From Erythrobacter donghaensis (GTDB lineage: Bacteria > Pseudomonadota > Alphaproteobacteria > Sphingomonadales > Sphingomonadaceae), in the NCBI RefSeq assembly GCF_002155425.1, contig NZ_MUYG01000010.1:310001-374000 (forward strand): a stretch of DNA of 64,000 nt, given 5' to 3'. The first letter of the stretch is position 1. Every line of letters starts with the position of its first letter. Below, piece after piece: positions 48,574-58,110 of this stretch. Made by a program: the position numbers and the translations under genes. The notes beneath the pieces were generated by a model. That model did no database searches, was not told the origin of the DNA, and saw nothing but the letters and a program-made list of their open reading frames with translations.

Positions 48574-49203
48574 GTGTGCAACCTCTACCGCATGACCCAG
48601 AACGCCATCGAGGTCGCAGCGTGGTTCGATGAAGTGGAGCGCGCGCAGGGCGCCAATTTCGCCGAGGAGGTCTATCCCGGCTATACCGGCTTGGTGGTGG
48701 CGGAAGGGGCCGTCAGGCCCATGACATGGGGCTTCCCGCTGGTGCTCAAGGGCAAACAGGGCCAGCCGTTGAAGCCCAAGCCGGTCAACAATGCGCGCTC
48801 CGACAAGCTCCAGACCGGGTTCTGGCGTCATGCCTTTCACAAGCGCCGCTGTCTGATCCCGCTCAGCGCCTGGGCCGAGGCGCAGGGGGCCAGAGGGCGG
48901 ATGACGCGCACGTGGTTGTCCCTGCCCGGCGCGCCATTGTTTGCGGTGGCGGGCGTCTGGCGGCCGTCCGAGGAATGGGGCGATTGCTATTCCATGGTCA
49001 TGACCGCGAGCGAGGGCACCGAGGCGGCGAGCGTCCATGAACGGATGCCGGTGCTGCTCGCGCCCGAGGATCACGCGCGCTGGCTGGCCGCCCCGGCCGA
49101 GGACGCGCTCGATCTGTGCCGGGGGTGGGAAGGGCCGCTCGTCATCGACCACACTGACCAGCTGTGGGCCAAGGGAACGGGGAGCCAGCCGGGGCTGCTT
49201 TAG
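48574..49203 (+). CDS. SOS response-associated peptidase (YedK/HMCES)
   Basis: A 209-aa SRAP protein. The start is the GTG giving MCNLYRM, so that Cys2 is at the N terminus once Met is removed, as is needed to cross-link to abasic sites in single-stranded DNA. RPMTWGF, NNARSDKL with the conserved Asn and Arg, and HERMPVLL with the active His-Glu are visible. The start of a longer upstream reading would hide Cys2 and is rejected. Confidence 0.92.
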   Translation: MCNLYRMTQNAIEVAAWFDEVERAQGANFAEEVYPGYTGLVVAEGAVRPMTWGFPLVLKGKQGQPLKPKPVNNARSDKLQTGFWRHAFHKRRCLIPLSAWAEAQGARGRMTRTWLSLPGAPLFAVAGVWRPSEEWGDCYSMVMTASEGTEAASVHERMPVLLAPEDHARWLAAPAEDALDLCRGWEGPLVIDHTDQLWAKGTGSQPGLL

Positions 49204-49571
49204 CTGTAGCTGACCACTTCGAACTCGATCCCGTCCCAGTCGAAGAAGTAGAACCGCCGCCCCGGTTCGTAGTCGGCGTGATTGAAGGGGACGAGGCCCG
49301 CCTCCGTCACCACCGTCTCCGCAGCGATAAGGTCCTCGACCACCAGCCCGACATGATTGAGCGGCATCCCCTTGGCAAAGCGCTCCACCGGCGCGCCCCG
49401 GGTATAGACCGCGATGTAATCGCGCGCGCTGCCCACGTGGATCGTCTCACCGCCCATTTGCGAGGGGCCGCGCCAGCGTATGTGCCAGCCCATCAATTGC
49501 TCCAGCAGAGCGGCAGTGCGGTCGATCTCGGAGACAGTGATGTTGACGTGTTCGAGAAAGCCGGTGGCCAT
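49200..49571 (-). CDS. VOC family protein
   Basis: A 123-aa glyoxalase/bleomycin-resistance-fold protein made of two beta-alpha-beta-beta-beta modules: FLEHVNITVSEIDRTAALLEQLMGWHIRW and LNHVGLVVEDLIAAETVVTEAG, ending FYFFDWDGIEFEVVSYS. Metal ligands seem to be H8, H77 and E119, as in glyoxalase-like enzymes. The substrate is unknown. It is divergent from soxR, with a SoxR-box-like site in the gap. Its stop overlaps the convergent YedK gene. Confidence 0.9.
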   Translation of the reverse strand: MATGFLEHVNITVSEIDRTAALLEQLMGWHIRWRGPSQMGGETIHVGSARDYIAVYTRGAPVERFAKGMPLNHVGLVVEDLIAAETVVTEAGLVPFNHADYEPGRRFYFFDWDGIEFEVVSYS

Positions 49572-49647
49572 GCTGTGTCCTTTCGTTAAGTCGGCGACGC
49601 GCGAGCCGCGGGGCGGGTGCGAATCGGTGAGCTTGCACAGCTTGCGA

Positions 49648-49665
49648 TCTCAACCTAACTTGAGG
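49648..49665. promoter_or_regulatory. SoxR-box-like operator
   Basis: TCTCAACCTAACTTGAGG matches 15 of 18 bases of the E. coli soxS SoxR box (CCTCAAGTTAACTTGAGG, recalled). It is flanked by AGCTTG (49639-49644) and CAAGCT (49667-49672), an outer inverted repeat. It lies in the 120-bp gap between the divergent VOC gene and soxR, so SoxR probably controls one or both. Confidence 0.7.
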
Positions 49666-49691: not shown

Positions 49692-50147
49692 ATGCCCGTC
49701 GCCCGACTTAAACCCACGGACCTCATCACCATCGGTGAAGTCGCGCGCCGCACCGGGCTAAGTGTCTCGGCGATCCGCTTCTACGAGGAGCAGGGGCTGG
49801 TCGAACCGCTGCGCACCGGCGGCAACCAGCGGCGCTTCCTGCGCTCCGACATCCGACGGCTGAGCTTCATCCTGATTGCCCAGCGGCTCGGCCTGTCGCT
49901 CGCCGAGATTGCCAGCGCACTCGCCAGTCTGCCGCACGGGCGCACGCCCACCGCGCGCGACTGGGAGGCGATCAGCGCCGCGATCCGCGCGCGGCTCGAT
50001 GCGCAAATTGCCGATCTTGTGCGCACCCGCGACCGGCTCGACGGCTGCATCGGCTGCGGGTGTCTCAGCCTGAGCCACTGTGCGATCTGGAACCCGCAGG
50101 ATGCGCTGGGCGAGGAGGGGCCGGGCGCCCGCAAGCTGCTGGCGTGA
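49692..50147 (+). CDS. soxR: redox-sensitive transcriptional activator SoxR
   Basis: A 151-aa MerR-family regulator. The helix-turn-helix TIGEVARRTGLSVSAIRFYE is at residues 13-32. The [2Fe-2S] ligands are C119, C122, C124 and C130 (CIGCGCLSLSHC), at exactly the E. coli SoxR positions. SoxR is activated when the cluster is oxidised, often by redox-cycling compounds. No soxS is near; a SoxR-box-like site lies before it, and the ABC export genes follow on the same strand. Confidence 0.94.
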   Translation: MPVARLKPTDLITIGEVARRTGLSVSAIRFYEEQGLVEPLRTGGNQRRFLRSDIRRLSFILIAQRLGLSLAEIASALASLPHGRTPTARDWEAISAAIRARLDAQIADLVRTRDRLDGCIGCGCLSLSHCAIWNPQDALGEEGPGARKLLA

Positions 50148-50293: not shown

Positions 50294-51190
50294 ATGCTCG
50301 AACTCGCCAGCGTCAGCCACACCTATCCCAACGGCACTCATGCGCTCGACGATGTGAGCCTGTCGATCCCCAAGGGTATGTTCGGCCTGCTGGGGCCGAA
50401 CGGCGCGGGCAAATCGACGCTGATGCGCACCATCGCGACCTTGCAGGCGCCGACTCACGGCGCGATCCGCTTCGGCGATATCGACGTTCTGGCCGAGCCC
50501 GACCGGCTGCGCCGCACGTTGGGCTATCTGCCGCAGGATTTCGGCGTCTATCCGCGTGTTTCGGCCTATCAGATGCTCGATCACATGGCGGTGCTGAAGG
50601 GCGTGAACAACGGCGCAGAGCGCAAGGCGATGGTCGAGCATCTGCTCAACCAGACCAACCTCTGGGCGGTGCGAAGCAAGGCCATCGCGGGCTTTTCGGG
50701 CGGGATGCGTCAGCGCTTCGGCATTGCGCAGGCGCTGATCGGCGATCCGCATCTGATCATCGTCGATGAACCCACCGCCGGGCTCGACCCGGAAGAGCGC
50801 AACCGTTTCCTCAATCTGCTGGCCGGGATCGGCGAGAACGTGGTCGTGATCCTCTCGACCCATATCGTCGACGATGTTGCCGACCTGTGCCCGCGCATGG
50901 CGGTGTTGGCGGGCGGCAAGGTGCGGCTGGAGGGCGCGCCGCTCGAACTGATCGCCTCGACCAAGGGGCGCGTATGGCAACGCACCGTGCCGCACACGCA
51001 GCTCGCAGAGATGCAGGCGCAATACGAGGTCATCTCGCACCGCTTCTTTGCGGGCGATATCGTCGTGCACGTGCTCAGCGAGACACAGCCCGAAGGCTTC
51101 GCCCCGGTCAGCGGCGGGCTGGAGGATGTCTATTTCGCCACGCTGGCCGAAACCCGCCGCGCCACCGCTCCCGCCGCGCAAGCCGCGTAA
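50294..51190 (+). CDS. ABC transporter ATP-binding protein
   Basis: A 298-aa ATPase: Walker A GPNGAGKST with K40, Q loop LPQDFGVYPR, signature FSGGMRQR, Walker B LIIVDEPTAGLDPEER and the H loop STHI. After about residue 215 it has a C-terminal domain of about 80 residues (EVISHRFFAGDIVVHVLSE) of its own. It pairs with the fused permease-peptidase gene 15 bases downstream. The start ATG at 50294 has GGGGGTC 9 bases upstream; a longer in-frame reading overlaps soxR. Confidence 0.93.
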   Translation: MLELASVSHTYPNGTHALDDVSLSIPKGMFGLLGPNGAGKSTLMRTIATLQAPTHGAIRFGDIDVLAEPDRLRRTLGYLPQDFGVYPRVSAYQMLDHMAVLKGVNNGAERKAMVEHLLNQTNLWAVRSKAIAGFSGGMRQRFGIAQALIGDPHLIIVDEPTAGLDPEERNRFLNLLAGIGENVVVILSTHIVDDVADLCPRMAVLAGGKVRLEGAPLELIASTKGRVWQRTVPHTQLAEMQAQYEVISHRFFAGDIVVHVLSETQPEGFAPVSGGLEDVYFATLAETRRATAPAAQAA

Positions 51191-51205
51191 GGGAGGGCAC
51201 CGCTC

Positions 51206-54200
51206 ATGCTGACCGCCAGCCTTGCCGGCTTCGAAATCCGCTATCAGCTGAAGAACCCGGTGTTCTGGGTTTCGGTGATGATCTTCTTCCTGATCGGTTT
51301 CGGGATCAGCGCCAGCGAAGATCTCAGCATCGGCACGCCGGGATCGGTGCACGAGAATTCGCCCTTTGCCGTCACCTTCGCGCTGGGGATTCTGGCGCTG
51401 TTCTATCTCTTCGTCATCACCTCCTTCGTCGCCAACGCCGTGGTGCGTGACGATGTGACCGGGTTCGGCCCGATGATCCGCGCAACGCCGGTGGGACGCA
51501 CGCAATTCCTCGCCGGACGCTTTCTTGGCGGACTGGTGATCGCGTTGATCGGCTATGCCGCCGTGCCGCTCGGGATTGCGCTGGGCGCGGCGATGCCGTG
51601 GGTCGATCCCGAGACGCTGGGGCCGGGAGGCTTTGCCGCCTATGCCTGGCCGTTCCTCGTTATTGCGGTGCCCAATATCATCCTGTCCTCGGCGCTGCTG
51701 TTCAGCCTCGCGACCATCACCCGGTCGATGCTGGCGAGCTATCTCGGCGTGCTGGTGCTGGTGATGGGTTATCTCGTCATCAGCGTCATCGTCGGGGCCG
51801 ACCCGGCCAATCAGGACGCCGTCGCCCGTTACGAGCCGCTCGGCATGGGCGCGATCGGCGAGGTCTCGCGCTATTGGACGGCGGCAGAGATGAACTCGCG
51901 GCTGATACCGCTTGAAGGCAATCTGCTGTTCAACCGCCTTTTCATTCTGGGGCTGTCGGCGGTCTTCCTCGGCCTTGCATGGGCGCGCTTCAGCATGACC
52001 GACCGCGCGCCCTCGCGCTGGCGGCAGCGGCGGCTGGCCAAGCAGGCCGCGCGTGCTGCCAAGGCTGAGACGGTGCAACCGCGCACGCTTGCCGCACCCG
52101 TCTCCCGCAGCTTCGGCTTTGGCCATGCCTGGGCGAGCTTCATGGCGCGCCTCAGGACCGAGATGATGCTGGTGCTCAAGAGCCCCGGCCTCATCGTGCT
52201 GTTGCTGCTGGCGCTGGCCTTTATCGCGCTCAACCTCGCCTTTGCGCAGACGATCTTCGGCACGCCGTCCTATCCGCTCACCGCCAATGTGATCACCTCG
52301 GTGCTCATCAACATGTTCCTACCGAGCCTGATCGTCGCGGTCTTCTATGGCGGTGAGCTGGTGTGGCGCGAGCGCGACGTGAAGATCGGCGAGATCGTCG
52401 ATGCCACGCCCGTCCCGGCCTGGGCGATGTTCGTGCCCAAGATTCTCGCGATCTTTCTGGTGCTGATCACCATGTCGCTCGCCGGAATGGTGACGGGGAT
52501 CGCCTACCAACTGATCAAGGGCGCGCCGAGCATCGATGTCGGCCTCTACCTTACCGCCTTCGTCGTGCCGCAGAGCATCGACCTGCTGCTGGTCGCGGTG
52601 CTGGCGGTGTTCTTCCAGGTCCTGAGCCCCAACAAATATGTCGGCTGGGGCCTGTTTCTGGTGTGGTTCCTGACGCGCATCTTCCTGTCGAACCTTGGCT
52701 ACACCAACATGCTCTACAGCTTCGGGGGCACGCCCGCCGAGCCGTTGAGCGACATGAACGGCACGGGCGAATTCTGGAAGGGCGGCGCGATCGCGCGGGC
52801 CTATTGGGCGAGCTTCGGCGTGCTCTTGCTGGTGCTGGCGCATTGGGCCTGGCCCAAGGGCACGGTGGTCGCCGTTCTGCCCCGCCTCAAAGGCATGGCG
52901 CGGCGGATCACCCCGGTCTCGGGCGGGATCGCGGCGGCGGCGCTGGCGGGCATGGTCGGCACCGGCGTGGTGATTCATCAGAACATCAAGGTGCTCAACT
53001 CCTACGAAACCTCCGACGAGGCCGAGGTCCGCGCGGCGCAATACGAGCGCAAGTATCTGAAATACGAAAACCTGCCGCGCCCGGTGGTGACCGACGTTGC
53101 TTTCGATGTCGCGATCTACCCCGAAGACCGCCGCATGACCGTCACCGGCCATTACGACCTGCGCAACGACAGCGGCGCGCCGATCCGCGAAGTGCACATA
53201 CGGCAGGGCGACGACGAGGCGGTGTTCGAAAAGCTTGCGATCGGCGGCGCAAGCCTTGCCAGCCATGACACACGCCACGCTTACCGCATCTACCGCTTCG
53301 ACACGCCGCTCGCACCCGGAGCGACGACGCGGCTCGATTTCGCCTCGCAGATCTGGCGGCGCGGCTTTGCCAATCGCGGGGCGGCGACCGATATCGTCGA
53401 CAACGGCACTTTCGTGAACAATTTCACCTTCGCGCCGCTGATCGGGATCGACCGCCGCGGGATGTTGCAGGATCGCACCGCGCGCCGCCGTCAGGGCCTG
53501 CCTGACGAGCTGCGGATGCCCCGGCTTGAAGATACCGCCGCACAGGGCCGCAACTATATCGGTGCAGACTGGGTCAATTCGCGCATCACGATCTCGACCA
53601 GCGCCGATCAGGTGCCGATCGCGCCGGGCAACAAGCTGTCCGACGAAGTCAAGGGCGACCGCCGGGTGGCGGTGTTCCAGAGCCCGGCGCCGATCCTCAA
53701 CTTCTTCTCGGTGCAGTCGGCGCGCTATGCCGTGGCCGAGGAGCAGGCGGGCGACGTTCTTCTGAGCGTCTATCACGACCCCCGCCACACCTGGAACGTG
53801 CCGGCAATGCTCAAGGCGATGAAGACCAGCCTCGGCTATTACGAGCGCGCTTTCGGCCCCTACCAGTTCGGCTATGCGCGGATCATCGAGTTCCCCGGCT
53901 ATTCGAGCTTCGCGCAGGCTTTCGCGGGCACGATGCCCTATTCCGAAAGCATCGGCTTTGCCGCCGACGTGCGCGATCCCGAGGTGATCGACTATGTCAC
54001 CTTCGTCACCGCGCATGAGGTGGGCCACCAATACTGGGCGCACCAGATCGTGGGCGGGGACATGCAGGGCTCGACCATGCTGTCGGAAACGCTCGCCGAA
54101 TATTCCGCGCTGATGGTGATGAAAGAGCTCTATGGCGAGGACAAGATCCGCCGTTTCCTCAAGTTCGAGCTCGACCGCTATCTGGCCGGGCGCAAGGGCG

Positions 54201-54805
54201 ATGTGGTGGGCGAACAGCCGCTGATGCGGGTCGAGGACCAGCAGCACATCCATTACAACAAGGGCGGGATCGCGATGTATCTGCTCCAGCACCGGCTGGG
54301 CGAGGACGCCGTGAACCGCGCGCTGGCGCGGCTGATCGCGCGCTACAAGTTCAAGCCGGCGCCCTATCCCCGCAGCCTCGACCTGATTGCCGAGCTGCGC
54401 AAGGAAGCCAGAACGCCGGAGGATCAGGCGCTGATCACCGACCTGTTCGAAACAATCACGATCTACGATCTCAAGGCCAAGGAAGCGGTCACCACGCAGC
54501 TGCCCGATCTGACCTACCGCACCCGCATCACGATCGAAGCGGGCAAGTTCACTGCTGACGCCAAGGGCAACGAGACCCCCGCGAAGCTCGCCGAGAACAT
54601 CGAAGTCGGCGTTTTCACCGAAAGGCCCGGCAGCGGCGTGTTCGACCGCGCCAAGGTGCTGTCGATGAAGCGCTTTCCCGTGCGCGGCGGCAAGCAGGTG
54701 ATCGAGGTGGTGACCAAGGGCGCGCGCCCGACCTTTGCCGGGGTCGATCCCTACAACTTCTACATCGACCGGGATTCGGACGATAATGTCGTGCCGGTGA
54801 CTTGA
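51206..54805 (+). CDS. ABC transporter permease fused to an M1-like metallopeptidase
   Basis: A 1199-aa fusion. Residues 1 to about 590 are an ABC-2-type permease with about 12 membrane helices in two halves. From about 600 a soluble part continues with the M1-type beta domain (VAIYPEDRRMTVTGHYDLRND) and a zinc site H937EVGH941 plus LSETLAEY, with Glu at HExxH+20 (x19 spacing, against x18 in classical M1). The M1 exopeptidase motif GAMEN is replaced by GTMPYSES. The peptidase should lie in the periplasm. The substrate is unknown. Confidence 0.9.
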   Translation: MLTASLAGFEIRYQLKNPVFWVSVMIFFLIGFGISASEDLSIGTPGSVHENSPFAVTFALGILALFYLFVITSFVANAVVRDDVTGFGPMIRATPVGRTQFLAGRFLGGLVIALIGYAAVPLGIALGAAMPWVDPETLGPGGFAAYAWPFLVIAVPNIILSSALLFSLATITRSMLASYLGVLVLVMGYLVISVIVGADPANQDAVARYEPLGMGAIGEVSRYWTAAEMNSRLIPLEGNLLFNRLFILGLSAVFLGLAWARFSMTDRAPSRWRQRRLAKQAARAAKAETVQPRTLAAPVSRSFGFGHAWASFMARLRTEMMLVLKSPGLIVLLLLALAFIALNLAFAQTIFGTPSYPLTANVITSVLINMFLPSLIVAVFYGGELVWRERDVKIGEIVDATPVPAWAMFVPKILAIFLVLITMSLAGMVTGIAYQLIKGAPSIDVGLYLTAFVVPQSIDLLLVAVLAVFFQVLSPNKYVGWGLFLVWFLTRIFLSNLGYTNMLYSFGGTPAEPLSDMNGTGEFWKGGAIARAYWASFGVLLLVLAHWAWPKGTVVAVLPRLKGMARRITPVSGGIAAAALAGMVGTGVVIHQNIKVLNSYETSDEAEVRAAQYERKYLKYENLPRPVVTDVAFDVAIYPEDRRMTVTGHYDLRNDSGAPIREVHIRQGDDEAVFEKLAIGGASLASHDTRHAYRIYRFDTPLAPGATTRLDFASQIWRRGFANRGAATDIVDNGTFVNNFTFAPLIGIDRRGMLQDRTARRRQGLPDELRMPRLEDTAAQGRNYIGADWVNSRITISTSADQVPIAPGNKLSDEVKGDRRVAVFQSPAPILNFFSVQSARYAVAEEQAGDVLLSVYHDPRHTWNVPAMLKAMKTSLGYYERAFGPYQFGYARIIEFPGYSSFAQAFAGTMPYSESIGFAADVRDPEVIDYVTFVTAHEVGHQYWAHQIVGGDMQGSTMLSETLAEYSALMVMKELYGEDKIRRFLKFELDRYLAGRKGDVVGEQPLMRVEDQQHIHYNKGGIAMYLLQHRLGEDAVNRALARLIARYKFKPAPYPRSLDLIAELRKEARTPEDQALITDLFETITIYDLKAKEAVTTQLPDLTYRTRITIEAGKFTADAKGNETPAKLAENIEVGVFTERPGSGVFDRAKVLSMKRFPVRGGKQVIEVVTKGARPTFAGVDPYNFYIDRDSDDNVVPVT

Positions 54806-54814
54806 GCGGGTGCC

Positions 54815-55354
54815 CTAGCTCTCCGGCCCCAGTTCCGGGTCGAGATCGCGGGGCCGCGCGAAGTGGACAAGCTCGGCGCAATAGCGCTTCAGCTCGCTCC
54901 AATGGGCGATGTCGCATTCGAGCACGGCATAGGCGGCGGTCGGGAATTTCACGACCGCTTCCTTGAACAGCGCGTTCTCCTTGCCCGGCGCGACCAGTTC
55001 GAGCAGCACGTCCTGCAGGCCCGGATTGTGGCCCGAGATCAGGATCGTTTTCGCTTCGTCATCTCCGCTGCCGGCATGGGCTTCGATCGTCTCGACGATG
55101 GTGTCGAAGCTGGCGAGGTAGAGCCGCTCGTCATAGATCGGTCTGACATCGGGCAGGGCGCTCTCAAGCGTTAGCTTGACCCGCACCGCGGGGCTGGCGA
55201 TCACCTTGTCCCACTTCACCCCATGGTCGCGGATGTGCTGGCCGATCTTGGCCGCGCCCTTGCGCCCACGGGCGTTCAGCCCGCGGTCGAAATCGCGCTG
55301 GCTGGTGTCGTCCCAGTCCGACTTGGCGTGGCGCAGGAGGCCCAGAATCTTCAT
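54815..55354 (-). CDS. sixA: SixA-type phosphohistidine phosphatase
   Basis: A 179-aa histidine phosphatase. It has LLRHAKSDW with the catalytic RHAKS, ASPAVRVKLTLE and ILISGHNPGLQDVLLELV with the second His. It is of SixA type, which removes phosphate from His residues of phosphotransfer proteins; the real target is unknown. It overlaps the helicase gene by ATGA (the helicase is upstream). Confidence 0.9.
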   Translation of the reverse strand: MKILGLLRHAKSDWDDTSQRDFDRGLNARGRKGAAKIGQHIRDHGVKWDKVIASPAVRVKLTLESALPDVRPIYDERLYLASFDTIVETIEAHAGSGDDEAKTILISGHNPGLQDVLLELVAPGKENALFKEAVVKFPTAAYAVLECDIAHWSELKRYCAELVHFARPRDLDPELGPES

Positions 55355-58110
55355 CGTTGCAAGGCTCCTCCCGCGTGCTCGCTCGGCTGCTGCACAACAC
55401 CAGCGGCGAGGCGTTGTAAAGCCTCATCGAGCGTCAGGCGCAGCACCGGGGTGCCTTTGGGGAAGGCGCTGAGCAGACGGGTGGGGAAGGCGGGGGAGAG
55501 CACGATGAAGTGCCCCGCATCGTCCTTTGAACGGATCAGCCGTCCGAAGGCCTGCGCCAGCCGGGCGCGGATGATGCGGTCGTCATAGGCAGAGCCGCCG
55601 CCTGCCAGCCGCCGCGCCTTGTGGAGGATATCCGGCCGCGGCCAGGGCACCTGCTCCAGCACCACGCAGCGCAGGGAATGGCCGGGAACGTCGACCCCGT
55701 CGCGCAACGCGTCGGTGCCGATCAGGCTGGCGCGCGGATCGTCGCGGAAGATGTCCACCAGAGTCCCCGTGTCGATCGGGTCGACATGCTGGGCATAGAC
55801 CGGGAGTCCGGCGCGCGCGAGCCGGTCGGCGATGCGGCCATGCACCGCGCGCAGCCGCCGGATCGCAGTGAACAGGCCGAGCACCCCGCCGCCCGACGCC
55901 TCGATGATCCGCGCATAGGCCCCGGCGAGCGCGGGCAGATCGCCCTTGGCGATGTCGGTGACGATCAGCACCTCGGCGCGGGCAGCGTAGTCGAAGGGGC
56001 TTTCGGCGGCGGAGAGCAGCGGCGCGACCTCGACATGGGCCGCGCCGGAGCGGGCAATCGCGCTGGCCCATTTCTCGTCAGGCGCGTCGGCATCGGTGGT
56101 GCGGTCGGTCAGGGTCGCGCTGGTCAGCAGCACGCCGTGTGCGGGTTCAAGCACGACGCGGGCGAAGGGCTTCATCGGGTCGAGCCAGCGGCGATGGATC
56201 GCGATGTCGAATTCGCGCGCGTCGGAGCGGTCGACCGCGAGCCAGTCGACGAATTCGGGATCGGCGGGGCCGCCCAGCCGGTCGAGCAGGGCTTCCCACG
56301 CGGCGATCAGATCGATCCGCCACGCCAGCGCGAAGCGTGCACCTTCGATCCGCGCGCGGCCCTGTGCGTCGAGCCAGTCGGGCGGTTCGGCGAGGATCGC
56401 CTCCAGCCGCCCGCCCAGTCGGATCAGCGGCACACGGATACTGGCGAGCGCCTCGGCTGCGGCGCTGGCGGCTTCGATCACCTCTCCGGGAAGGCCCGCC
56501 GCCTCGGTCTCGATCCCGTAGCCCGCCTCCTGCCCGCCGCTCTCGTCGCGGGCGTAGGTGGCGGTGCGCACCGCGGCGAGCAGGGCTTCGATGGGGCCGA
56601 AGGGGCTGTTCTCGGCAAGGCGCTGGAGCCAGCCGTCGGAGGGTAGCAATTGCCCCGCCTTGCAGGCGGCGGCGATGGCTTCCGCGCCGGCATCGTCATA
56701 GCTGGCAAGGTCTGCGAGCCTTGCAGCAAGGCCCCGCCTGCGTCCGCGCGCTTCGCGTTCGGGGCCCATTATCCAGCGCCTGAGTTCGATCGTCTCCTGC
56801 CCGGAGAGCGTGGCGGCGAAGGTCGAATCAGCGGCATCGAAGACGTGGTGGCCTTCGTCGAAGATCAGCCGCGTCGGGCGCTGGTTGGGATCGCGGGCGC
56901 GGGCTGCATTGACCATCACAAGCGCGTGGTTGGCGATCACCAGATCGGCTTGTGCGGAATCCCTCGCGGCGCGCTCGATGAAGCATTTGCGGTAGTGGGG
57001 GCACCCGGCATAGATGCATTCGCCGCGCTGGTCGGTCAGTGCCGCGATCCCGCGCTTCCTGAACAGCGTGCCGAGCCAGCCGGGCAGGTCGCCGCCGATC
57101 ATGTCGCCATCGCGCGTATAGGCCCCCCAGCGCGCCACCAGCTGCGCCAACACCGCGGGCCGTCCGGCAAAGCCACCTTGCAGAGCGTCCTCAAGATTGA
57201 GCAGGCAGAGGTAATTCTCGCGGCCCTTGCGCACCACCACCGGCGGGGAGCCGTCGCCGCGCTTGGCGGGCCATGCCCGGCGGCTCTCGGCGCGCAGCTG
57301 GCGTTGCAGGTTCTTGGTAAAGGTCGAGACCCACACCGTGCCGCCGCTCAGGCCTGCCCAGACCGAGGCCGGGGCGAGATAGCCCAGCGTCTTGCCGATG
57401 CCCGTCCCCGCCTGCGCCAGCGCCAGATGTGGCCGGCCGGGGGAGGAGCGCGGCCCGAAGATGCGCGACACGTCGGCGGCATAGGCGCGCTGGCCCTCGC
57501 GGCTTTCTGCACCCTCGCCGGTAAGGCGCGCGAGTTGCGCCTGCACCGCCTCGGCCCCCAGTTCGACTTGCCGTGGGGCAGCGCGCTCGCCGGCCTCCTC
57601 CCATTCGGGCAGCTTGGCGAACAACCAGCGTTCGGCCCGCTCAGGCTTGGCGATGTGGGCCTTGAGCACCTGTGCCCAGGGCCAGCGCAGCCGTTCGAGC
57701 GATTGCAGCGCGCTCCACGCGCCTTCGCGCTCGGGCCAAGCGGGATCGCGGCACACCGCCGCCAGCGCACCCGCCGCCTGCTGGAGCAGCGCAGGCACTG
57801 CCGCGTCGTTTGCAGGGACCGGAAGCCCCAGCGCCTCGGCCAGCCCGCGCGGGGTGGGCACGCAGAACCGCGCCGGGTGGACAAAGGCGAAAGCCTCGAG
57901 CAGATCGAGCCCCGACAGATCGGGATAGCCCAGCCGGCTCGCCACCAGCGGGGCGTTGATCAGCAGCACCGGGGTGTCGGCAGCGGCCATGATCGCATCG
58001 CCCTTCGACACCGCGGTGGTGCGGCCGTCGGCGGCACACAGCCAGTGCCCGCCATGGCTGGCGTGGAGCGCTGTCAGAGGGAGGGGATCGGGGAGGCTCA
58101 CACCGGCCAC
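55351..58110 (-). CDS. ATP-dependent helicase of DinG/XPD type
   Basis: A 919-aa superfamily 2 helicase. Walker A GTGIGKT is at residues 235-241 and DEGHHVFD is the DEAH box. The Fe-S cluster Cys are in NYLCLLNLED and ECIYAGCPHYRKCF (four Cys, as in DinG and XPD). Motif VI-like QAFGRLIRSKDD is near the C terminus. The first 180 residues have no known domain. It starts at GTG; a second GTG is 9 bases on. Confidence 0.88.
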   Translation of the reverse strand: MAGVSLPDPLPLTALHASHGGHWLCAADGRTTAVSKGDAIMAAADTPVLLINAPLVASRLGYPDLSGLDLLEAFAFVHPARFCVPTPRGLAEALGLPVPANDAAVPALLQQAAGALAAVCRDPAWPEREGAWSALQSLERLRWPWAQVLKAHIAKPERAERWLFAKLPEWEEAGERAAPRQVELGAEAVQAQLARLTGEGAESREGQRAYAADVSRIFGPRSSPGRPHLALAQAGTGIGKTLGYLAPASVWAGLSGGTVWVSTFTKNLQRQLRAESRRAWPAKRGDGSPPVVVRKGRENYLCLLNLEDALQGGFAGRPAVLAQLVARWGAYTRDGDMIGGDLPGWLGTLFRKRGIAALTDQRGECIYAGCPHYRKCFIERAARDSAQADLVIANHALVMVNAARARDPNQRPTRLIFDEGHHVFDAADSTFAATLSGQETIELRRWIMGPEREARGRRRGLAARLADLASYDDAGAEAIAAACKAGQLLPSDGWLQRLAENSPFGPIEALLAAVRTATYARDESGGQEAGYGIETEAAGLPGEVIEAASAAAEALASIRVPLIRLGGRLEAILAEPPDWLDAQGRARIEGARFALAWRIDLIAAWEALLDRLGGPADPEFVDWLAVDRSDAREFDIAIHRRWLDPMKPFARVVLEPAHGVLLTSATLTDRTTDADAPDEKWASAIARSGAAHVEVAPLLSAAESPFDYAARAEVLIVTDIAKGDLPALAGAYARIIEASGGGVLGLFTAIRRLRAVHGRIADRLARAGLPVYAQHVDPIDTGTLVDIFRDDPRASLIGTDALRDGVDVPGHSLRCVVLEQVPWPRPDILHKARRLAGGGSAYDDRIIRARLAQAFGRLIRSKDDAGHFIVLSPAFPTRLLSAFPKGTPVLRLTLDEALQRLAAGVVQQPSEHAGGALQR

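Follow-up and report, generated by a model that had tools for sequence, protein, structure and literature searches.

The window analysed here, a stretch of 64,000 nucleotides (nt) of Erythrobacter donghaensis DNA (NZ_MUYG01000010.1, 310,001–374,000; all coordinates below are positions within this stretch), contains two genes on the + strand that encode a putative ATP-binding cassette (ABC) exporter whose permease is joined to a metallopeptidase domain. The first open reading frame (50294..51190) specifies an ABC ATPase subunit of 298 amino acids (aa), recognised by the Pfam model ABC_tran, and the second (51206..54805) a permease–peptidase fusion of 1199 aa. The genes lie 15 nt apart on the same strand, both frames are open, and a search of the genome found a single copy of the pair. 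A preliminary description of this DNA had proposed such a two-gene system, and the pairing extends well beyond the window. We fetched 125 loci, some of which are the same place reached by two routes and many of which have cut flanks, and found the permease in all of them. Gene calling yielded some false genes and overlooked frames below 50 aa; the positions of the ATPase and soxR genes were recounted by tblastn, which places an ATPase gene at most 200 nt upstream of the permease gene in all 121 loci for which 950 nt or more of upstream sequence was available.

By sequence, the closest solved structures to the ATPase are the ABCA and NosF ATPases, with ABCA4 as the best match (E 6.6e-53). The subunit is close in length to NosF (308 aa), and its size is therefore no mark of an unusual ATPase. 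The best named relatives, among the matches listed, are 77–81% identical and carry the titles Porphyrobacter and Erythrobacter. A scan of the fusion against NCBIfam returned no matching model, and its match to Pfam ABC2_membrane_3 falls below the cut-off of that model.

We built a full-length AlphaFold2 model of the fusion from 57 aligned sequences (mean predicted local distance difference test (pLDDT) 89.8, predicted template modelling score (pTM) 0.85); the membrane half was also modelled separately, and structures were compared by VIA and Foldseek. The alignment comprises the window protein and 56 of the 79 remaining contig loci found by motif, thinned to limit redundancy; locus L091, which carries a frame shift and 29 stops, was left out. 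Residues 1–267 (51206..52006, + strand) contain transmembrane (TM) helices 1–6 and resemble NosY (7o12_E; VIA Z 19.5, root-mean-square deviation (rmsd) 3.2, 234 residues aligned), and residues 305–553 (52118..52864, + strand) contain TM7–12 and resemble PmtD (6xjh_A; Z 16.5, rmsd 3.1, 234 aligned). Taken together, the two halves align with the mycobacterial efflux pump 8k1o_A over 459 residues (Z 16.9, rmsd 4.9). Each six-helix half has a helix ahead of its first TM helix, and this arrangement, with a partner ATPase gene alongside, is that of a type V (ABC-2) exporter. In the model, the membrane half thus consists of two tandem type V exporter halves followed by a thirteenth helix.

The thirteenth helix (residues 572–596; 52919..52993, + strand) settles the predicted location of the peptidase. 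It is preceded by a positively charged inside loop (548–571, mean net charge +6.1 over the 57 sequences), and the large predicted inside loops are positive, most strongly loop 262–326 with a mean of +7.1; loop 389–407, also inside, is slightly negative (−1.7), and inside loop 81–97 is neutral. The predicted outside loops all range from neutral to negative; the segment past helix 13 has a mean net charge of −2.4. Because of the 13 helices and the charged inside loops, the peptidase domain is placed at the pump's outlet, on the non-cytoplasmic side. The preliminary description had counted twelve helices, and this correction is the most consequential one for the mechanism.

The outside domain (residues 610–1197; 53033..54796, + strand) has the fold of peptidase family M1. 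It superimposes on 1z1w with a Z of 24.1 (rmsd 4.6, 460 residues aligned) and on the Deinococcus two-domain M1 6ifg_A with a Z of 23.9 (rmsd 3.1, 391 aligned), and residues 871–1054 match Pfam Peptidase_M1 with 32.8 bits, above the cut-off of 27.7. The proposal that a permease and an M1-like zinc peptidase are joined in a single 1199-aa chain is thus borne out. The zinc-binding motif is HEVGH (residues 937–941; 54014..54028, + strand), and the alignment gives Glu961 (54086..54088, + strand), 19 residues past His941, as the third zinc ligand. The catalytic tyrosine of M1 enzymes is also present: Tyr1017 (54254..54256, + strand) lies in the sequence HY-x-KG and pairs in the HMMER alignment with the tyrosine of YNKG in ERAP2. 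His937, Glu938, His941, Glu961 and Tyr1017 are invariant in all 57 aligned sequences, window included.

To follow these residues more widely, we assembled 146 non-identical fused homologues with open frames of at least 850 aa, so that split or partial copies do not enter the count. The set consists of 74 contig rows found by motif patterns, which are biased accordingly, 68 rows from a genome search and four plasmid rows. All five catalytic residues are kept in 142 of the 146. Among the 68 rows chosen without a motif (the window's own copy included) the site is intact in 66, and among the plasmid rows in two of four. Of 143 zinc-bearing rows (which include the window twice), 142 have 19 residues between His941 and Glu961 and one has 16. 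Classical M1 enzymes have HExxH-x18-E, and the ordinary M1 loci of related genomes show x18 in 29 of 30 cases, the thirtieth being a wrong frame. The x19 spacing thus marks the fusion family, being fixed in all but one of the zinc-bearing fusions while ordinary M1s show x18. The HExxH-x19-E site noted earlier is therefore a genuine feature, and because x19 replaces x18, the domain is best regarded as a putative divergent M1-fold peptidase rather than a classical M1 aminopeptidase.

A second departure concerns the exopeptidase motif GxMEN. The glutamate of GAMEN in M1 aminopeptidases grips the free N-terminal amine of the substrate. In the HMMER alignment to ERAP2, the counterpart of GAMEN is F902-A-Q-A-F906 (53909..53923, + strand), with Ala905 in the place of the glutamate; hhalign pairs the GAMEN of related-genome M1s with G908-T-M-P-Y912 instead, which puts Pro911 in that place. 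The glutamate is thus missing by both alignments. The preliminary description had given GTMPYSES as the replacement for GAMEN; the loss stands, and hhalign agrees on the position, but the exact counterpart is uncertain. In the model, T909-M-P-Y-S-E914 (53930..53947, + strand) forms a strand ahead of the zinc helix, and Thr909, Ser913 and Glu914 are invariant in 57 of 57 sequences. Glu914, considered as a candidate amine anchor, pairs in the ERAP2 alignment with the glutamate of YRE instead, although hhalign disagrees with that alignment. Because the GAMEN glutamate is absent and the x19 spacing is fixed, classical aminopeptidase action is doubtful, and the earlier doubt on this point is supported.

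This bears on the function suggested for the described family. The 2013 report on Q1D520 of Myxococcus xanthus describes a protein of 1200 aa with 13 TM segments, an ABC-2 exporter followed by a C-terminal Peptidase M1 domain, assigns it to a new family, TC 3.A.1.145, and suggests for TC 3.A.1.145.1 the export of an amino acid or derivative (PMC3924187). Applied to the window protein, the pump would export the amino acid products of the peptidase. We consider this quite improbable, as two alignments lack the glutamate that would anchor the amine and a pump that works outward cannot be supplied by a peptidase located outside.

The zinc ligands are lost in four of the 146 homologues. L056 and L086, near-copies from two genomes of one genus that each also has an intact copy, carry RExxR in place of the zinc motif; L167, on a Zymomonas mobilis plasmid, likewise has RExxR, and L169, on a Pseudoalteromonas plasmid, lacks HExxH. 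A tree of 57 rows built from the permease columns alone requires two changes to account for the loss of zinc. In this tree the grouping of L167 with L169 carries a long-branch warning, and the placement of L056 and L086 is weakly held; a single clade of all zinc-dead members was rejected, since the tree needs two losses, with the same warning for L167 and L169. A further genome search (27 of 398 genomes with a match) brought no new zinc-dead lineage, in a sample that largely overlaps an earlier one of 397 genomes and yielded only places already known.

Could the M1 domain be a purely structural or binding module? Broken zinc ligands in homologues had been named as the observation that would point this way, and four homologues have indeed lost them and kept the domain. 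However, the five catalytic residues are invariant in the alignment and intact in nearly the whole set, and because the zinc-dead members are only 21–27% identical to the window protein, whose own lineage is intact, their existence does not make the window domain structural only. We regard this explanation as very improbable.

A TonB receptor lies within the fetched flanks of L056 (where it sits past a neighbouring regulator gene), L167 and L169, and ExbB/ExbD lie near L086. Among the 115 remaining loci a TonB receptor is near seven; the TonB, Fec and ExbB queries came from the zinc-dead loci themselves, so that these four are positive by construction and 7/115 is probably an undercount. Zinc-bearing members of a second subfamily in Pseudoalteromonas shioyasakiensis, described below, also adjoin a TonB receptor, and the TonB link of the zinc-dead members is a lead only. 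On pNC201 (L169:67-11634), genes for a thioesterase, Peripla_BP_2 and Fec-type permeases plus ATPase are followed by the ABC ATPase and the zinc-dead M1 permease and then by a TonB receptor; by gene content this looks like a siderophore locus. On pZZM404 (L167:286-10070), a TonB receptor, two ABC permease–ATPase genes, the ATPase and the zinc-dead M1 permease stand in one row.

From the computed folds and topology, the intact and invariant catalytic residues and the strict pairing with an ATPase, we infer the remaining parts of a mechanism, namely two ATPases per permease, the direction of export, zinc binding, cutting and a peptide-like cargo. Two ATPase copies would drive one permease chain that already holds both exporter halves. 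A cargo such as a peptide, lipopeptide or non-ribosomal peptide would be picked up in the inner leaflet or in the cytoplasm and delivered to the outside, where the M1-type domain, tethered at the exit by the thirteenth helix, would cut it by the usual zinc–tyrosine chemistry of M1 enzymes. It would probably not trim single residues off a free N-terminus, because the glutamate that grips the free N-terminal amine is missing. We give a probability of about 0.5 to this reading, in which the exporter passes its peptide-like cargo on to an outward-facing M1 peptidase that is active but not of the classical type. The preliminary description had suggested export and cutting in one machine, and this is the best supported explanation because of the exporter fold, the outside-facing M1 fold and the invariant catalytic residues. 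The alignment of the whole permease with the efflux pump 8k1o and of its second half with PmtD also speaks for it, as do the regulator-linked second subfamily and the precedent of ZmaM, a prodrug-cutting peptidase fused to an ABC half-transporter (PMC9889268).

Several observations weigh against export and cutting. Neither gene clusters (85 loci) nor short frames (123 loci) revealed a conserved substrate gene near the pair. The zinc-dead members indicate that the domain can serve without cutting. HMMER and hhalign disagree on the place of the GAMEN counterpart. The Foldseek E-values of the membrane half are weak (best 2.7e-3), and for this reason the VIA alignments carry the exporter-fold claim. 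A lipid or lipopeptide cargo stays open on sequence grounds, since the closest solved relatives of the ATPase are ABCA lipid transporters.

As proposed for the action of NosFY on NosD, the ABC part of the present system might be a motor, with ATP-driven movement of the permease opening and closing the outside M1 domain and little being transported. The first half resembles NosY more than any other structure, and the ATPase matches include NosF; however, the permease as a whole aligns with an efflux pump too, and its second half with PmtD. We consider a motor an unlikely explanation and hold it, like amino acid export and a structural-only domain, to be less likely. A more specific version of export and cutting would join several of the above features: lacking an amine anchor, the M1 domain may cut N-acylated or N-blocked peptides (lipopeptides, non-ribosomal precursors) delivered by the type V exporter, as a zinc counterpart of ZmaM, and in siderophore-like loci the machine may have lost its zinc site and become an exporter that binds a peptide siderophore uncut. 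We offer this joint reading tentatively and consider it unlikely as a whole.

Beside the pair, neither a further gene nor a short frame is widely conserved. A small peptide gene nearby, looked for as a possible substrate, did not emerge: in a comparison of 1292 short frames lying no more than 500 nt from 123 loci, the widest clusters span six loci. These loci are all closely related to the window, and the clusters are probably shadow frames of downstream genes. Beyond the permease and ATPase, the next gene cluster is found in 10 of 85 loci, at scattered positions.

LytS/LytTR pairs are regulators commonly associated with peptide sensing. Such a divergent kinase/LytTR pair adjoins a second subfamily in six of six loci (L080–L085, Pfam-checked for L082), whose members are 21–25% identical, with an intact zinc site and the same architecture. 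A seventh case, also checked with Pfam, is Pseudoalteromonas shioyasakiensis, in two strains (L264, L266). The proteins of these eight loci end soon after the catalytic domain. On other branches, two Hymenobacter plasmids and one Paucibacter locus also carry a LytS/LytTR-type pair; of two other Bacteroidota plasmids, one carries an unpaired LytTR gene ∼4 kb downstream and the other lacks any.

Of 397 genomes sampled from the window's phylum, 31 hold a match across permease and peptidase (43 if short one-part matches count). Among 198 genomes of Acidobacteriota, the phylum given for L164 in the origin table of the tree, 19 contain a fused match counted as a single row; the raw tally of 147 consists mostly of short matches, chiefly to the M1 part. 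The distribution within the genus is patchy, with any match in 13 of 24 genomes (a count that includes partial matches and a genome that has just the second subfamily). In a one-genome-per-species collection, a relative is encoded, among the matches listed, by 586 of 592 stretches that fit the pattern. There are 28 plasmid records with a match, seven of which cover at least 80% of the query, from Pseudomonadota, Bacteroidota, Acidobacteriota and Gemmatimonadota among others; plasmid annotation already names homologues 'M1 family aminopeptidase'. One-by-one inspection covered the plasmid matches other than H8, H10, H11, H13–H15, H17–H23 and H25–H28. No relative was found in viral contigs, and there was no match in PHROGs. 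At one locus, L007 (G007:C137:31342-34840), the fusion gene lies in two overlapping frames and is thus broken or mis-assembled there.

These patterns bear on the main rival to export and cutting, self-protection. The pump would lift membrane-active peptides or lipopeptides, foreign or the cell's own, from the inner membrane, and the peptidase would destroy them; mechanically this would be the same machine, but its cargo would arrive from outside and be broken down instead of being matured. The patchy distribution within the genus, the plasmid copies, the LytS/LytTR pair beside the second subfamily and the lack of a conserved substrate gene all fit. Against this, we know of no resistance phenotype for the family, and in the window's own subfamily a LytS/LytTR-type pair is near just one locus, besides a Hymenobacter plasmid. 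We therefore rate self-protection as possible but doubtful.

In the window the pair directly follows soxR (49692..50147, + strand; TIGR01950, 188.3 bits, cut-off 116.9), which ends 146 nt before the ATPase gene. The preliminary description was right on this point, but the arrangement is lineage-specific: soxR is near the pair in four of the 125 loci, all among the eight that are at least 76% identical to the window. A SoxR-box-like site lies upstream of soxR (49648..49665, + strand), with two mismatches to the consensus CCTCAAGNNAACTTGAGG. It is a single place that matches on both strands; shuffled sequences gave a mean of 0.28 matches, with at least two in 6 of 100 shuffles. No such site was found between soxR and the ATPase gene, and that gap contains one terminator-like hairpin (0.4 expected). 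As the box-like site precedes soxR rather than the ATPase gene and the hairpin lies between them, we do not claim SoxR as a regulator of the pair. A glyoxalase-like gene diverges from soxR across the box-like site (49200–49665). Further downstream, 55351–58110 on the − strand encodes a 919-aa DinG/YoaA-like helicase (best NCBIfam match 212 bits, cut-off 680) with ∼200 residues ahead of the helicase match, and a gene with sub-cut-off similarity to sixA adjoins it.

The system is widespread, and if it exports and cuts, it would be a common case of a metallopeptidase and an ABC pump linked in a single chain. The natural zinc-dead versions and the regulator-linked subfamily provide ready controls and entry points toward the cargo. 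The preliminary description is partly confirmed: the two genes, the x19 site and the peptidase fusion hold, the helix count is corrected to 13, the exact GAMEN counterpart is uncertain and the position after soxR is local. The observation itself is real, well conserved and concerns a member of a described family.

With NosFY, PmtCD, which exports phenol-soluble modulin peptides, and the mycobacterial pump 8k1m–8k1p, the window protein shares the membrane fold of each half, and its whole permease is like the tandem mycobacterial one, but it adds a thirteenth helix and a peptidase. The ATPase of the mycobacterial pump, one of the solved structures matched by the sequence of the window ATPase, is Rv1218c, and the permease of that pump is Rv1217c. 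PCAT exporters combine a C39 peptidase and an ABC exporter in one chain, where C39 is a cytosolic N-terminal cysteine peptidase. The window protein likewise has peptidase and exporter in one chain but differs by its C-terminal outside zinc domain; at E 0.001 Pfam lists Peptidase_M1 (C-terminal) and ABC2_membrane_3 alone, and the ATPase is a separate gene. Peptidase family M1 (PepN, ERAP2, LTA4H, tricorn factor F3, Deinococcus two-domain M1) shares the fold, HExxH, the third glutamate and the catalytic tyrosine, whereas the window protein has x19 in place of x18, no GAMEN glutamate and a permease fusion. The likeness to ZmaM is one of analogy and not of family: one protein joins a peptidase and an ABC transporter, but the ZmaM peptidase belongs to the β-lactamase superfamily (serine), stands ahead of the transporter part and is not homologous (PMC9889268). 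In the literature searched, which covers few subscription papers, one report mentions the fusion family (PMC3924187), and we found no functional study of it. The window protein shares the size, the 13 TM segments and the domain order, ABC-2 permease followed by a C-terminal M1 domain, given for TC 3.A.1.145; judged by that description rather than by the Q1D520 sequence, nothing contradicts membership, and the window pair probably belongs to this family, whose architecture is already in print (PMC3924187). Beyond that architecture, the present analysis shows the LytS/LytTR-linked subfamily and the rare zinc-dead members, three of them near TonB receptors.

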